Assembly (NCBI RefSeq): GCF_005780165.1
Contig: NZ_VAUV01000011.1
Coordinates: forward strand, 124,001-188,000
Length of the DNA stretch: 64,000 bases
Direction: 5' to 3'
Source: Phragmitibacter flavus
Lineage (GTDB): Bacteria; Verrucomicrobiota; Verrucomicrobiia; Verrucomicrobiales; Verrucomicrobiaceae
Positions 5,012-43,096 of this stretch are shown one piece after another. Under the pieces are notes generated by a model, which saw only the letters and a program-made list of their open reading frames with translations, had not been told where the DNA came from and did not search any database. A program made the translations under genes and the position numbers. Numbering within the stretch: the stretch's first letter is position 1; each line of letters starts with the position of its first letter.

Positions 5012-6286
5012 ATGACCCACCTCTATCGCAACGCGCAAATCGCCTCCGAAGATAACCGCGAACTCCTCATTGCCGACCTCCTCGTCGAAAACGGAAAAAT
5101 CACCCGCCTCGCCCCCAACCTCTCCACTCCTGAAGGAATCAGTTCCACCGACTGCACCGGTAAAATCCTCCTCCCCGCCCTCTACGACATCCACGTTCAC
5201 GCCCGCGAACCCGGTCAGGAACAAAAAGAAAACATCCTCACCTGCAGCGAAGCCGCCATCAACGGAGGCATCACCGGCTTCTGCATGATGCCCAACACCT
5301 CCCCCGCCATCGACAATGCGGGCGTCGTCAAAACCGTCCTCGAATCCGCCCGCGCCACCCGACTCAAACTGCACACCAGCGGCGCCATCACCAAAGGCCG
5401 TGAAGGCAAGGAACTCGCCGCCATCGGCGCCATGAAAAATGCCGGCATCGTCATGATCACTGACGACGGCTACCCGGTCGCCAACCCCGTCGTGCTGCGT
5501 CGCGCCATGGAATATGCCCGCGACTTCGGCCTCATCATCGCCAGCCATTGCGAAACCATGGAACTCTCCGGCAAAGGCTCCATGCATGAAGGCGAAGTCA
5601 GCTACTCGCTCGGCCTCGAAGGCATCCCCGCCATCAGCGAGGAAATCAGCATCGCCCGCGACATCCAAATTGCCCAATACACCGGAGCCCACCTCCACAT
5701 CCAGCACGTCACCACCGCCCGGGGAATGGAAATCATCCGCCGCGCCAAAAACGACGGTGTCAAAGTGACCTGCGAAGTCGCCCCCCATCACCTCATTTTC
5801 AATCATCACCACATCGGCGACTACGACACCCATTACAAAATGAATCCCCCCCTCCGCACCCCGGAGGACAACGCCCTGCTTCTGCAAGGCCTCATCGACG
5901 GTATCTTCGACGTCATCGCCACCGACCACGCCCCCCACACGCCTTTCGAGAAAAACAACGACTTCGCCACCGCCCCCTTCGGCATCACCGGACTCGAAAC
6001 CGCCCTCCCCTCCCTCTACCACCACTTCATCTCCCAAGGCACCCTGAGCTGGGACCTCATCGTCAAACGCTACTCCGCCGAACCCCGCCGCCTCATCGGT
6101 CTCGCCCCCGTTCCCATTGTCGAAAAGGCCCTCGCCAACTTCATCATCTTCGATCCCAACGCCACCACCACCTTCTCCACCGACTTCATGAAGTCCCGCA
6201 GTCAGAACACCCCCTTCCTCAATCAAACCCTCAACGGCCGCATCACCACCGTCCTCTCCGAAGGCGAACTCCTCCTCAGTCGCTAA
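5012..6286 (+). CDS. pyrC: Dihydroorotase
   Basis: This 424-residue amidohydrolase catalyses the reversible cyclisation of carbamoyl-aspartate to dihydroorotate in pyrimidine synthesis. Metal-binding motifs are visible in order: DIHVHAREPG near residues 58-67, ASHCET, HIQHVTTARG and ATDHAPHTPF. The length and motifs fit class I (multifunctional-complex type) dihydroorotase. The ATG at 5012 gives a normal start MTHLYRNAQI. pyrF follows after 39 bases on the same strand, making a probable pyrimidine operon. The intervening bases hold a heptamer repeat. Confidence 0.93.
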   Translation: MTHLYRNAQIASEDNRELLIADLLVENGKITRLAPNLSTPEGISSTDCTGKILLPALYDIHVHAREPGQEQKENILTCSEAAINGGITGFCMMPNTSPAIDNAGVVKTVLESARATRLKLHTSGAITKGREGKELAAIGAMKNAGIVMITDDGYPVANPVVLRRAMEYARDFGLIIASHCETMELSGKGSMHEGEVSYSLGLEGIPAISEEISIARDIQIAQYTGAHLHIQHVTTARGMEIIRRAKNDGVKVTCEVAPHHLIFNHHHIGDYDTHYKMNPPLRTPEDNALLLQGLIDGIFDVIATDHAPHTPFEKNNDFATAPFGITGLETALPSLYHHFISQGTLSWDLIVKRYSAEPRRLIGLAPVPIVEKALANFIIFDPNATTTFSTDFMKSRSQNTPFLNQTLNGRITTVLSEGELLLSR

Positions 6287-6290
6287 ATTC

Positions 6291-6311
6291 ATAAATCATA
6301 AATCATAAATC
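6291..6311 (+). repeat. Heptamer array (ATAAATC)x3
   Basis: Three perfect tandem copies of ATAAATC fill most of the pyrC-pyrF gap and end 14 bases before the pyrF ATG. The array is AT-rich, unlike its surroundings. Its unit length matches the other seven-base arrays in this window. Confidence 0.85.
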
Positions 6312-6325
6312 ATCATTCCCTTTAG

Positions 6326-10396: not shown

Positions 10397-11008
10397 TCAA
10401 GCCAACTGGCTCGCAGTCGTTCCCGTTTTTTCCAATATCATCGCCAGTTCCCGCCCCACCCGTCCTTCATAACCCGTCACCGGCACCCAATGGTCGACCA
10501 CCTCAAATCCCGCGTCCTCCAACATCTTGCGTAGCGTCTCCACCTCCACACCAAACGGTGGACCTGTTTCCCCATCATCCATTTCAGGATTGATAAAAAA
10601 CACCCCTGCCAGTTTTCCACCCGGCATCAAAACCGCGTGAAGCGACTTCAAATAAGCAACACGCAGAGCCGGGTCCAGCGCACAAAAGCACGTGTGTTCC
10701 CAGACCATGTCAAACGCCTCCACGAACTCCTCCTTCAGCGAAAACACATCCGCCACCTGAAAATCCACCGGACTGGTCTCATCCCAATTTTTCGCCGCTT
10801 CGATGGCCAACGGTGCCACATCCACCGCCGTCACCATCAGCCCAAAATCCGCCAATCGCCTCGCATCATGGCCCACCCCACAACCCGGCACCCAAGCCCG
10901 ACCGCTGAAAACTGCCGGGTGCCTTGAGGAAATTTCATCCAACACCGGCGTCGCCCGCCCCTTTTCCCAAGGCGTTTCGCGATTCTCGTAAGCAGCATTC
11001 CAGTCCAT
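10397..11008 (-). CDS. SAM-dependent methyltransferase (TPMT-like)
   Basis: This 203-residue protein has the class I methyltransferase motif WVPGCGVGHDARRLADFG near residues 41-58. It begins WNAAYENRETPWEKGRATP, as in thiopurine S-methyltransferase-family proteins, and has the second-strand acidic region VTAVDVAPLAIEA. The family transfers methyl groups to small thiol, selenium or tellurium compounds; the actual substrate here is unknown. It is probably cytosolic. It is upstream of, and co-oriented with, the cupin gene across a 71-base gap. Confidence 0.85.
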   Translation of the reverse strand: MDWNAAYENRETPWEKGRATPVLDEISSRHPAVFSGRAWVPGCGVGHDARRLADFGLMVTAVDVAPLAIEAAKNWDETSPVDFQVADVFSLKEEFVEAFDMVWEHTCFCALDPALRVAYLKSLHAVLMPGGKLAGVFFINPEMDDGETGPPFGVEVETLRKMLEDAGFEVVDHWVPVTGYEGRVGRELAMILEKTGTTASQLA

Positions 11009-11320
11009 ATGAGAGGGTCAAGGTTCAAGGGTTCAGGGTCAAGCCGAAACCGCTTCGCTCTTCCTCCTACTCTTACTCCTACTCTTACTCTTACTCTTCC
11101 TCCTACTCCTCACACAAAACTTCCACCACACCCATCGCCATCCATCACTCAAACGCACCCTATCCGCCATCGTCCTCGTCCTCCTACTCGAACTCGTCCT
11201 CGACCACAGCGCGAATATCCCCGCCAAACCTCCAAATCGAGGACGAGTAGGAGGACGAGTAGGAGGACGATCCTGAGGCCTTGACCCCAAACCCATGACC
11301 CCTTAACCTCCCCTATTCCC
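11009..11320. repeat. Composite noncoding repeat element
   Basis: This gene-free stretch of about 310 bases is nearly all repeat. Its left end is a degenerate heptamer array (11016-11043: GGTCAAG, GTTCAAG, GGTTCAG, GGTCAAG). Its right end carries the same kind of array inverted (11280-11307: CTTGACC, CCAAACC, CATGACC, CCTTAAC). Inside are TCYTAC hexamers (11065-11110), a CTCGTCCTC-type block (11171-11202) and its reverse complement (11238-11271). The overall inverted symmetry suggests a mobile or foldback noncoding element. Frames through it are Ser/Tyr or Arg/Lys repeats and are not genes. Confidence 0.75.
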
Positions 11321-12052
11321 ATGCAACCACGCGCAGCCATCAGCAACGGCATCATCACCATCGTGGTGCTGTTCTTCATGCTCATGGTCGGCATGCTGCT
11401 CAAAGCCCGATACCGACTCGCGGCAAACGAAACCAGTCTCACCACCGTCGAAACCACCGTTCCCAAAGCCATCCCCGTCGCCATGGCGGTCGAACCGGAA
11501 ATCCACCAACCTCGCGCTTATCAGGATGGCGACTGGTGGGTGCTTCCCAACCCCGAACTCGTCGTGAGCCGCGCCAACGAAGCCGATACCATGCGCATCC
11601 GCAGCGGCGTCAAAGAAGACGTTTTTGTCCTCTATTTCGTCGACGCCACCGAAACCAGCCCCACCCGCCTCCAGCGCCTGCGCGAACAATCGACCTATTA
11701 TCACCAAGCCCACCCCGACCAACTTCTCGCCACCGGACAGGACGCGCTCAAGTTCGTCACCCAACTTCTCAGCGACTACCCCTTCACTGTCTATACCAAA
11801 TGGGGCCGAGTCCCCGACAGCGAACGCTTCTACGCCATCGTTCGCATCGAGATGATTCCCGGTAAAACCTATGACCTCGGCGAACTCCTCATCAGTCATG
11901 GCTACGCCAGCCCCACCGGCCAGCAAACCGGCACCCTGCCCAGCAACATGCCCGCCCTCAATCAATACTTGAAGAACCTCTCCCGTGCCCTCAGCAGCGC
12001 CAAAGCAGATCAAAGCGGCGCCTGGGCGCTTTCGTCTTCACCCAGTCTTTAG
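11321..12052 (+). CDS. Membrane-anchored staphylococcal-nuclease-like protein
   Basis: This 243-residue protein has one N-terminal membrane helix (about residues 8-27, IISNGIITIVVLFFMLMVG region). A domain resembling the SNase/Tudor OB-fold follows: ANEADTMRIRSG, then VLYFVDATETS, then KWGRVPDSERFYAIV and LLISHGYA. The Asp and Glu of the active-site strand are kept (VDATE). The position of the first catalytic arginine appears to be Val, so nuclease activity is doubtful. It starts ten bases after the composite repeat. It is either an exported nuclease relative or a binding domain. Confidence 0.65.
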   Translation: MQPRAAISNGIITIVVLFFMLMVGMLLKARYRLAANETSLTTVETTVPKAIPVAMAVEPEIHQPRAYQDGDWWVLPNPELVVSRANEADTMRIRSGVKEDVFVLYFVDATETSPTRLQRLREQSTYYHQAHPDQLLATGQDALKFVTQLLSDYPFTVYTKWGRVPDSERFYAIVRIEMIPGKTYDLGELLISHGYASPTGQQTGTLPSNMPALNQYLKNLSRALSSAKADQSGAWALSSSPSL

Positions 12053-17123: not shown

Positions 17124-17158
17124 AGTTGAGAGTTGAGAGTTCTTAGTTGAGAGTGTCC
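17124..17158 (+). repeat. Heptamer array (AGTTGAG-type)
   Basis: Five in-phase heptamers follow lysA: AGTTGAG, AGTTGAG, AGTTCTT, AGTTGAG and AGTGTCC. Every unit begins AGT. The array ends about 43 bases before the next ATG. It is one of six heptamer loci in the window. Confidence 0.8.
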
Positions 17159-38236: not shown

Positions 38237-38306
38237 GATGGTGCTGCCCCACGAATCCTTTCATACCGTCCCTATCAGCACCAAACATGCCGGGGCAAGA
38301 ATCAAC

Positions 38307-38475
38307 ACTGCCCACTGCCCACTGCCCACTGCCCACTGCCCACTGCCCACTGCCCACTGCCCACTGCCCACTGCCCACTGCCCACTGCCCACTGCCCACT
38401 GCCCACTTCCGACTTCCGACTTCCGACTTCCAACTTTCCCATCACTTTTCACTTTTCACTCTTCACTTTCCCCCT
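38307..38475 (+). repeat. Long heptamer array (ACTGCCC)14 and variants
   Basis: About fourteen perfect tandem copies of ACTGCCC (38307-38404) pass into ACTTCCG x3, ACTTCCA and ACTTTTC-type seven-mers up to 38475. The array lies between the divergent lacI-like gene and the zinc-ribbon gene and ends 16 bases before its ATG. Frames through it encode only repetitive peptides. Confidence 0.9.
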
Positions 38476-39700: not shown

Positions 39701-39756
39701 ACTGCCTACTGCCCACTTCCCACTTCCCACTTCCCACTTCCCACTTCCCACTTCCC
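39701..39756 (+). repeat. Heptamer array (ACTTCCC)x6
   Basis: One copy each of ACTGCCT and ACTGCCC precede six perfect copies of ACTTCCC. The array lies between zinc-ribbon copy 2 and parC and ends 66 bases before the parC GTG start. Confidence 0.88.
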
Positions 39757-39822
39757 ATTACCACTTGAACTCCCCCCCATTCTCCCCATACAGTCCCGCC
39801 CGCTCCATTTTCCCGACTCCCC

Positions 39823-41835: not shown

Positions 41836-42683
41836 ATCCTACTCGTCCTCCTACTCCTACTCCTACTCGTCCTCGAGCGAATTCCGCCCACAAAAAAGAC
41901 GAGGCATTCCTGCCTCGTCCTCAAAAAATCAATCCTCGTCTGCCCATCAGATCCGATCCGACGTTTCACCGTCTGCTCCAAGCGCTGCACCCCGCGACGA
42001 ATTCTCGCCTTCACCGTTCCAAGCGGCTCATTCAGCCTCGTCGCAATCTCGCTCTGCGTCAGCCCATTGAAATAAGCCAACTGGATCGCCTCACGCTGTT
42101 CAGGAGTCAGATCCATCACTGCGCTCTGCACCGCCTGATCGCTTTCGCGGGAAATCAGCAGATCGCTGGTATCCTCGTCAAACTCCGGCTGCACACTGCG
42201 GCTTTCCTGCTCGAAGTCATCGTTCAATCTTGCACGACGCTGTTTCGAACGGATCCGGTCAATCGCGCGGTTTCTCGCCAAGGTCGTCACCCAGGTAAGC
42301 GGCTTGCCTTTGGAGGGTTCATAAAGATGAGCTTTCTGCCAAATCTGCACCAAAACCTCCTGCATCACGTCTTCGGTGTCTTGGTGGTCATTCAGCACCC
42401 GATGAATCGTGGTGTAGAGAAGCCCGCTGAACTTTTTGTAAAATTGTTGGAAAGCCACCACATCGCGGTGCCCGATGGCTTGAAGCATGGTGCTGTCAAT
42501 TTGAACCTCCTCAAGGCTCGCGGGATCTAATTCGCGACCCTTGCGGCGTTGCCGGCTAGGGGAAATAAGCGTATTCACAGGGTTAATGTCTATATTTCTG
42601 GGGTTTTGTCTATTAAAAACTTCACCGTTTTCACTTTTGTCTAACTTTTGACCATTAGCATGCAAGTAGTTACTTTCATTCAT
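41832..42683 (-). CDS. ECF-like RNA polymerase sigma factor
   Basis: This 283-residue protein has region 2 (LYTTIHRVLNDHQDTEDVMQ, then WVTTLARNRAIDRIRSKQR) and region 4 (LTPEQREAIQLAYFNGLTQS, then GTVKARIRRGVQRLE), typical of ECF sigma factors. An N-terminal extension of about 65 residues precedes region 2. The last ~20 residues (RSRTSRSRSRRTSRI) come from the CTCGTC/CTCCTA low-complexity repeat that ends parC, so the C-terminus is repeat-derived. No anti-sigma gene is adjacent. Promoter specificity is unknown. Confidence 0.9.
   Translation of the reverse strand: MNESNYLHANGQKLDKSENGEVFNRQNPRNIDINPVNTLISPSRQRRKGRELDPASLEEVQIDSTMLQAIGHRDVVAFQQFYKKFSGLLYTTIHRVLNDHQDTEDVMQEVLVQIWQKAHLYEPSKGKPLTWVTTLARNRAIDRIRSKQRRARLNDDFEQESRSVQPEFDEDTSDLLISRESDQAVQSAVMDLTPEQREAIQLAYFNGLTQSEIATRLNEPLGTVKARIRRGVQRLEQTVKRRIGSDGQTRIDFLRTRQECLVFFVGGIRSRTSRSRSRRTSRI
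41840..41880 (+). repeat. CTCGTC/CTCCTA low-complexity repeat
   Basis: A tract of hexamer-like CTCGTC, CTCCTA and CTACTC words is followed by GAGCGAATTCCGCCC. A similar tract with a related flank (GCGCGAATATCCCCGCC) lies at 11171-11223, so the two are probably copies of one dispersed element. This copy encodes the tail of the sigma factor. Confidence 0.7.
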
Positions 42684-43096
42684 AATTCAAAAAAAAGTGA
42701 GGTGTTAACGATGTGGTTTTTGTTTCGATCCATTTATTGACTCTAGTGTTTCGCACCAGCGAGATAAATGGATTTGCCTATAAGACGCCCCAGCCAACAA
42801 ATATTGGACAAAGAAAACCGACATTTGTCGAAGAATTATTTTCCCCCCAGTCAAACACCTTATCCCAATAGGTCTAAAAAATCACAGATGGACACAGATA
42901 CACACAGATCAGAGCCATCAAAATTCGGATCCGAGGCACTACATCTGTGTGTATCTGTGTCCATCTGTGGTTAGAAAACTCATTCCTCCCTGCCTCACCT
43001 CTCCACAAAGTCTCCCATCACTATAAACCCCACCCCAAAAAACCCTCTGCGGACCTCCGCGCCTCTCTACGGTTGAAAAAAACCGTTCAAAAAACT
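42684..43096. other. Noncoding region with palindrome and repeat fragments
   Basis: This stretch of about 410 bases has no convincing gene. It contains a 27-base perfect inverted repeat (42883-42909 / 42943-42969, 33-base loop). A segment near 43044-43080 reads like the common dispersed CTCTGCGG/ACCTCCGCG unit. The frames crossing the palindrome encode Asp/Thr- and Cys/Val/Ser-rich peptides and are best treated as spurious. The promoter of the sigma-factor gene should lie in its left part. Confidence 0.7.
42883..42969. repeat. 27-bp perfect inverted repeat
   Basis: The arms are 42883-42909 and 42943-42969, exact reverse complements, each built of CACAGATGGACACAGATACA-like words. The 33-base loop is single-copy. 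This class of palindrome is dispersed in many environmental bacterial genomes. Its function is unknown. Confidence 0.9.

Follow-up and report, generated by a model that had tools for sequence, protein, structure and literature searches.

The gap between two genes at positions 11009–11320 of the window (the whole stretch of 64,000 nucleotides of Phragmitibacter flavus DNA that was analysed) was found to contain a compound inverted repeat. This repeat is probably a partly decayed member, devoid of an open reading frame (ORF), of a family of small insertion elements that consist of a 5′ arm, an S23/IVP gene and a complementary 3′ arm. A complete element would be about 500–600 bp long and would carry an S23/IVP gene for a four-helix bundle between its arms; most copies have arms of tandem heptamers, and those of one S23 subfamily are built from tandem hexamers (modules A and B). 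In our study, this anatomy was found repeatedly, and the two arms were complementary within a copy despite the difference in arm sequence between copies. Modules A and B of the gap were identical with arms that bound S23 genes, and empty sites were found for relatives of the gap copy.

Compound inverted repeat of the gap

The repeat occupied positions 11013–11310 and was composed of outer heptamer arms, a block of pyrimidine hexamers (module B) and the inner arms A+ and A− (Table 1). The earlier note on this DNA had described heptamer arrays of inverted sense at both borders of the gap, and these were confirmed as paired arms, with an alignment score that was matched by 1 of 5000 shuffles. The word GGTCAAG alone was not enriched within the window (10 observed vs. 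7.7 expected); the signal of the gap is the paired heptamer array and not the single word. The inner arms formed an inverted repeat of 35 nucleotides that was 83% complementary. The sequence CCTCCTACTC was found 6 times in the window vs. 0.06 expected, five times inside the gap and once at position 41847. A block of CTCGTC/CTCCTA units together with its reverse complement had also been noted; the inner pair A+/A− is such an inverted pair, whereas block B had no reverse-complement partner of its own. The gap had further been read as one inverted compound repeat of about 300 bases. It is a composite foldback, but a mosaic of A, B and heptamer modules and not one fixed unit. The related half-element seen near position 41840 was found to be one A-type arm.

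Table 1. Features of the gap, its neighbouring genes and the solo arm, in positions of the window
Feature	Position	Strand	Remarks
Left neighbour, TPMT-like methyltransferase (PF05724)	10397..11008	-	Points away from the element
Outer left arm	11013..11043	+	Four degenerate heptamers GGTCAAG GTTCAAG GGTTCAG GGTCAAG at 11016-11043; pairs with the right arm in the predicted fold
Module B, pyrimidine hexamer tract	11053..11111	+	TCTTAC/TCCTAC/TCTTCC units; a like module bounds the S23 gene at G000:C6:302773
Module A+	11169..11203	+	ATCGTCCTCGTCCTCCTACTCGAACTCGTCCTCGA; no mismatch to the A pattern
Module A-	11237..11271	-	Reverse complement of an A arm; 2 differences from the pattern
Outer right arm	11280..11310	-	Heptamers CTTGACC CCAAACC CATGACC CCTTAAC within 11280-11308
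Right neighbour, 243-aa ORF	11321..12052	+	Points away from the element; no Pfam/NCBIfam match at E 0.001
Solo A-type arm	41837..41876	+	2 differences from the A pattern

In the predicted RNA fold, the whole gap formed one compound hairpin (z −7.06, equalled by 0 of 100 shuffles), in which block B was partly paired with the A− arm. A coarse scan for inverted repeats (60-nucleotide windows in steps of 60, with the partner within the next 340 nucleotides) placed the two highest scores of the window, 20.0 and 19.5, at the gap and the next, 18.5, at 42841. Inverted decamer arrays CACAGATACA / CATCTGTGTC were found at 42883–42969, where they account for this third-highest score; they represent a different repeat family. 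At gathering scores, the Rfam matches in the window were two tRNAs only.

Some features of the gap copy count against its membership in a family of S23 elements. It contained no S23 remnant, it was adjoined by divergent genes, which is an exception among the clusters described below, and its outer GGTCAAG heptamers were unlike all five S23 arm pairs of the same genome. In a DNA-level search of 58 other family genomes, the two genes that adjoin this copy were nowhere found next to each other, so that an empty site for it could not be read.

Modules A and B as arms of S23 units

With the gap as the query, blastn gave 110 matches in the genome of P. flavus itself (G000; 5.9 Mb, 44 contigs). The earlier note had proposed a search elsewhere in the genome; related modules were present genome-wide, but there was no second full copy, and the best other match covered positions 50–195 of the query (82%). 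The 34-nucleotide pattern of module A was found in 21 + 24 = 45 copies in this genome with at most 2 mismatches, and the reversed pattern in none. The pattern was also present in 15 of 56 relatives, three of which (G003, G013, and G019) match through TCGTCC microsatellites. In many cases module A was matched at 97–100% identity in other species. In named genomes the pattern matched at least 80 records; among the matches listed, 63 were by title of Verrucomicrobiota type, 7 were from Lentisphaerae and 10 had other sources, Streptomyces for example.

Tracts of type A or B were assigned on either strand in 32 stretches around the matches, which together with the window gave 43 clusters, single tracts included. 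In the clusters with tracts on both strands, the pyrimidine arms came before the purine arms in 23 of 23 cases. The spacers of the clusters were mostly unrelated, with a few local duplicates, and this is unexpected if the clusters are copies of one element. In the clusters L042, L060, L065, and L046 of G000, the arms were interleaved (B+ A+ B− A− or A+ B+ A− B−), an order that is not produced by simple nesting of one element in another.

Gene context was scored for 42 clusters by heuristic gene calls, based on a codon score for which the window served as training set; the two arms of the S23 unit L058 were counted as separate clusters. Tandem genes adjoined 34 clusters, convergent genes 2 and divergent genes 1; the other 5, the gap copy among them, were without assignment. 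Relative to the tandem genes, 18 of the unbalanced clusters were pyrimidine-sense and 3 were opposite, while 11 were balanced (L058 left out). Nine of the 42 clusters sat within an open frame having a coding score, which counts against an origin from S23 elements. When S23 remnants were searched in the 31 cluster stretches of P. flavus, only the complete unit L058 matched. Among the three stretches from other genomes, an S23 match was found in L118 and in the complete unit of L180 and not in the shortened copy of L180. At L180 (141–945), the A-armed S23 unit, whose 3′ arm is truncated, was located beside this second copy with its internal deletion.

Modules A and B were found to serve as arms in units with a four-helix-bundle gene of the S23/IVP type (PF05635), the protein family known from the intervening sequences of 23S rRNA. 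A arms were present on both sides of the four-helix-bundle gene at L118 and L180 in other genomes. In P. flavus, 5 of 5 PF05635 genes had short-repeat arms; four were heptamer arms, those of L232 being weak and missed by the repeat tool, and one was of module B hexamers. The last is L233 (G000:C6:302773), with the S23 gene between B/B hexamer arms. The S23 proteins belong to TIGR02436 and to the family of the solved proteins 2rld and 2gsc. Identity to the S23 protein of L233 was 62–65% for the hexamer-armed proteins of L118, L180, and L326 and fell below 40% for the next best ones.

The neighbours of L233 are a MoxR-type ATPase gene upstream and a gene for a DUF58 protein downstream. Both neighbours were matched in G030, G032, G029, G008, G035, G025, G069, and L118, with an identity of 76–87% on the MoxR side and 67–70% on the DUF58 side in a comparison made with the sense proteins. 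The same context was interrupted by a contig end at L180, and the hexamer-type S23 genes of G017 and G040 were found at other sites. The S23 gene at the MoxR-DUF58 site was bounded by A/A arms in G030, G032, G029, G069, and L118, by a shorter A variant in G008 and by B/B arms in G025 and P. flavus. The arms of G035 were mixed with a poorer stem, and those of L180 had only 17 paired bases. Among the arm pairs of hexamer-type S23 genes, the median score was 27 for cognate vs. 19.5 for non-cognate pairs; the own arm was the best partner in only 4 of 11 rows because the A/A copies share arms.

The hexamer-type S23 was present in 8 of 57 genomes, P. flavus included (>100 bits). At least 10 A modules were found in 6 of 8 genomes with this S23 vs. 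2 of 45 without it (p = 3e-5), a value that omits four genomes of genus g4, in which the A hits, where present, are TCGTCC microsatellites; with these included, the second fraction is 4 of 49 and p = 1.4e-4. Kinship is ignored in these Fisher tests, with genus g8 contributing 5 of the 6 positive genomes, and the threshold of 10 modules was chosen once the counts had been seen. Against the link with S23, G026 and G027 were rich in A modules without a hexamer-type S23, and G017 contained a hexamer-type S23 at another site and no A modules.

Arms, orientation and empty sites of S23 genes

Matches to PF05635 were found in 51 of 57 genomes, P. flavus included. A sample of 90 S23 loci was examined, which comprised 31 of the first 35, four being lost to contig ends, and 59 of a further 60 from lower in the table, so that high-scoring genes are over-represented. 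The arm score was taken as the best inverted alignment of the 250 nucleotides upstream with the 250 nucleotides downstream of the gene. Inverted flanking arms reached a score of at least 14 in 73 of 90 loci and at least 12 in 79, whereas the outer flanks of the same genes reached these scores in 0 and 1 of 90, respectively. In direct orientation, the same flanks reached 14 in 8 and 12 in 10 of 90 loci. Mispaired S23 flanks scored at least 14 in 48 of 2231 pairings, with 19 homologous pairs dropped, which indicates that an arm fits its partner in the same copy far better than an arm of another copy. The same score was found for 6 of 276 control genes, three of the six being themselves A-type arms; the control genes were taken from the window and the named loci, with 10 loci of other phyla and the loci below 4 kb left out. 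The arm rule is not universal, as 11 of the 90 S23 loci scored below 12, and this counts against the proposed family.

The arms of the S23 genes had a period of 7, with autocorrelation values of 0.55, 0.52, and 0.50 at lags 7, 14, and 21 vs. 0.32 in shuffled sequences. Within the range of 3 to 10, the best lag was 7 in 49 of the 73 armed loci. The arm sequences differed widely between copies, and they had in common only a tendency towards a purine with a G after it at one phase. Arms were also found around S23 genes on plasmids, where 18 of 25 matching records were sampled. The score of 14 was reached by 11 of the 18 loci and by 0 of 18 outer flanks, one of which reached 12. The arm-bearing plasmid loci were from three other phyla (Cyanobacteriota, Azospirillum, and Gemmatirosa), and the period of 7 was seen there at 0.68.

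Orientation was assigned by codon score, the longest ORF being too ambiguous at this G+C content. The S23 gene was co-directional with both neighbours in 78 of 89 loci, and where the neighbours agreed, 78 genes were sense vs. 2 antisense. Thus, in the Verrucomicrobiota genomes examined, the elements are located in sense orientation in the gaps between tandem genes. Among the 16 annotated plasmid loci, 12 were sense, 3 (L430, L431, and L443) were antisense and in 1 only the upstream gene was co-oriented. The sense bias is weaker on plasmids, since only 12 loci were sense vs. 3 antisense; the antisense unit of L431, which has strong arms, counts against entry in the sense direction. On cyanobacterial plasmids (L433, L436, and L441), S23 genes were found inside CRISPR operons in the orders cas6-S23-cas4 and cas10-S23-cmr3.

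Empty sites in relatives, which the earlier note had named as a check, were found for an S23 unit and for an A module in queG, though not for the gap copy. The S23 unit L248 of G023 occupies 580 nucleotides between LivG-like and LivF-like ABC ATPase genes (best matches, below the cut-off). In 13 loci of other genomes, this site was empty in 9, with both flanks present and 7–26 nucleotides between them, occupied in 2 (G030 and G080) and cut in 2. Similarity to G023 was lower for the occupied G030 and G080 than for the empty G020, G007, and G033, and this requires loss, transfer or repeated insertion. The second case is queG (TIGR00276), of which 28 loci were compared, 27 with both anchors. A loop of the protein had 12–15 residues in 20 of the 28 loci, and in G079, G035, G025, and G073 it contained an in-frame A module. 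Heptamer arrays were also found in this loop, for example in G029 and G085. The queG loci thus show empty sites for the ORF-less A module. In some relatives, with G079 (L323, 1500–1710) as the example, the queG loop had gained heptamer arrays and a GC-rich palindrome besides an A module, all in frame, so that insertions seem to be tolerated at this hot spot. Inspection of junctions by eye gave no recognisable target duplication; the spacer was replaced there.

Mode of spread, alternatives and known systems

The element would be transcribed within the mRNA of its host, and its arms may pair in the RNA and form a long stem at which RNase III cleavage is either tolerated or guided, as happens in the intervening sequences (IVS) of rRNA. 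The S23 protein may bind the arms and be required for spread, and the ORF-less copies and solo arms, the gap copy included, would then be leftovers or would be mobilised in trans. The sense bias favours a route through the transcript or the transcribed strand, or else selection for co-transcription. S23 could also be associated with the arms without causing their movement. A dedicated RVT_1 reverse transcriptase for the S23 units is unlikely, because five genomes with 9–10 S23 matches have none. These genomes (G004, G008, G009, G010, and G030; PF05635 matches, no PF00078) also led to the rejection of a diversity-generating retroelement, in which Avd works with a partner reverse transcriptase. 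The similarity of S23 to Avd (NF033474) was distant and was found for one of four S23 proteins at 21.7 bits, below the cut-off of 80; unlike Avd systems, several S23-rich genomes were without an RVT_1 match. The one reverse transcriptase of the P. flavus genome was rejected as an S23 partner, and it is a group II intron maturase (TIGR04416). Among the tested Y1/RAYT and RVT_1 enzymes, none was tied to the S23 units.

A broader and rather doubtful reading is that S23 proteins define widespread minimal mobile elements, whose ends are recognised by self-complementarity and a periodicity of 6 or 7 nucleotides instead of a fixed sequence and which mostly enter transcribed regions in the sense direction, perhaps via an RNA step. 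The rRNA IVS would then be a special case, and the puzzling heptamers of Cyanobacteria, Xanthomonas, and Verrucomicrobiota would be arms of such elements. We give it less weight because the plasmid loci were only 12 vs. 3 sense.

It is improbable that the modules are structured regulatory or mRNA-processing RNAs with a function for the host, beside which S23 landed as an unrelated gene. The pyrimidine sense of 18 of the 21 unbalanced clusters, the strong folds and the position in tandem gene gaps would suit such RNAs. Their distribution was patchy, however (15 of 56 relatives, three of them as microsatellites), the spacers were mostly unrelated, and most S23 genes examined were armed on both sides.

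Slippage expansion of simple sequence, with inverted arms arising by chance or by local inversion, is a further alternative; the earlier note had named local slippage as part of what would refute the element. We consider it very unlikely, as slippage alone would not account for arms that pair, for a module A that is nearly the same in different species or for the tie to S23. The units of 6 or 7 nucleotides, whose number varies between copies, are in its favour, and slippage probably still sets the length of the arms. It does not agree with the many matches of module A at 97–100% identity in other species, with the strict arm order (23/23), with arms that match far better within than between copies, or with the empty sites at the L248 site and in queG.

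Intrinsic transcription terminators that have spread, possibly bidirectional ones, are a highly improbable source of the clusters. Although the stems were long and a few T residues followed several A− arms (U-runs were judged by eye), 34 of the 37 assigned clusters were in tandem gaps and only 2 were convergent. The S23 units were also located within tandem gene sets, including cas6-S23-cas4 and cas10-S23-cmr3, and A modules were found inside the reading frame of queG.

It is equally hard to credit that the gap contains a REP/BIME-like element mobilised by RAYT, a Y1 tyrosine transposase, with the module as a CGTC-tagged REP. The P. flavus genome contained about 10 Y1/RAYT-like genes (13 matches), CGTC was present near the end of module A, and the inverted module pairs resemble BIMEs as these are described in the accessible part of the source (PMC3733652). 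None of the 13 Y1 loci, however, had four consecutive hexamer units within a distance of 1.5 kb, and the three Y1 loci whose flanks were examined carried other repeats (AGCCCCAAAGGGGCGACC and others). Module A also lacked the palindrome of CGTC REPs, with a stem of 8–9 bp and a loop of 4–5 nucleotides according to the available text (PMC3733652). This candidate was rejected, as the Y1/RAYT flanks were without A or B modules and module A is a single arm that needs a second inverted module to pair. The likeness to REP/BIME is that of short dispersed inverted repeats between genes; in contrast to what that part of the source reports (PMC3733652), no RAYT linkage and no single-unit palindrome were found here, and the make-up is of tandem hexamers or heptamers. 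At L218, 45-nucleotide inverted flanks (AGCCCCAAAGGGGCGACC...) at 1312–1356 and 1903–1947 surround a Y1/RAYT-like transposase gene and form a separate repeat family. A MITE of a DDE insertion sequence would be expected to have terminal repeats of fixed sequence and a target duplication; the arm sequences differed between copies, and no duplication was recognised by eye, although the spacer was replaced.

The cyanobacterial STRRs are comparable tandem heptamers and are mostly intergenic. The Rickettsia palindromic elements are known for in-frame insertion of a repeat into genes. The A module of queG is like them, by description only, in being a repeat in frame in a conserved gene; unlike them, it is linked to S23.

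The nearest known system to the proposed S23 family is the 23S rRNA IVS of Coxiella burnetii, for which the available part of the source describes an S23-family ORF, a terminal stem of 28 bp and cutting by RNase III (PMC4990558). Tandem GACAGAT heptamers precede the S23 start in that IVS, and mobility was suspected (PMC4990558). As far as that text describes it, the likeness consists of an S23 ORF between terminal inverted repeats, in transcript sense and with tandem heptamers (PMC4990558). Unlike the rRNA IVS, the units found here are located between protein genes and number several per genome, with ORF-less copies, solo arms and possible hexamer arms. RNase III excision is a feature of the rRNA IVS, whereas the stem here is known from the sequence and the predicted fold. 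By the features of S23/IVP elements, the S23 gene (PF05635, TIGR02436) was found in the complete units of the family and not in the gap copy. Terminal inverted repeats were found both in the family (73/90 loci) and in the gap copy (z −7.06), and the location was outside rRNA.

Heptameric intergenic repeats were reported in Xanthomonas and Nostoc, with convergent close pairs in Xanthomonas in 70 and 75 cases (PMC4692102, available part), and the TAACTGA repeats are described in the accessible text as tandem heptamers that are mostly intergenic (PMC4679880). Both are, on that description, like the present arms in being tandem and mostly intergenic heptamers (PMC4692102; PMC4679880). The heptamers found here bound an S23 gene, whereas S23 is unmentioned for these repeats in the parts of the two sources that were available (PMC4692102; PMC4679880). 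In the mostly open-access literature searched, no link was found between S23/IVP genes and heptamer or hexamer arms outside rRNA. The parts were known separately, as the rRNA IVS with S23, the heptamers of Xanthomonas and Nostoc (PMC4692102) and the TAACTGA repeats (PMC4679880), as far as the accessible text of these sources goes; nothing that joins them was found in the literature searched.

The function of S23/IVP proteins and the abundance of intergenic heptamer arrays may have one shared answer. If the link between S23 and the arms holds, the intervening sequences of rRNA would represent one of the sites reached by a general mobile unit, for which it is enough that its two ends match, and the in-frame insertion of repeats in conserved genes such as queG would be explained. 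Elements of this kind may explain the origin of many short repeats in bacterial genomes.

Other heptamer arrays were found in the window. Long arrays in one orientation (CACTGCC x14.6, ACTTCCG, TCACTTT, and ACTTCCC) were present at 38306–38469 and 39708–39766, the first shortly upstream of an ATG, and both look like solo arms without an S23 gene. Heptamer arrays of TAAATCA and AGTTGAG were found at 6284–6313 and 17124–17154, respectively, and the TAAATCA array resembles the arms of the S23 unit L234.
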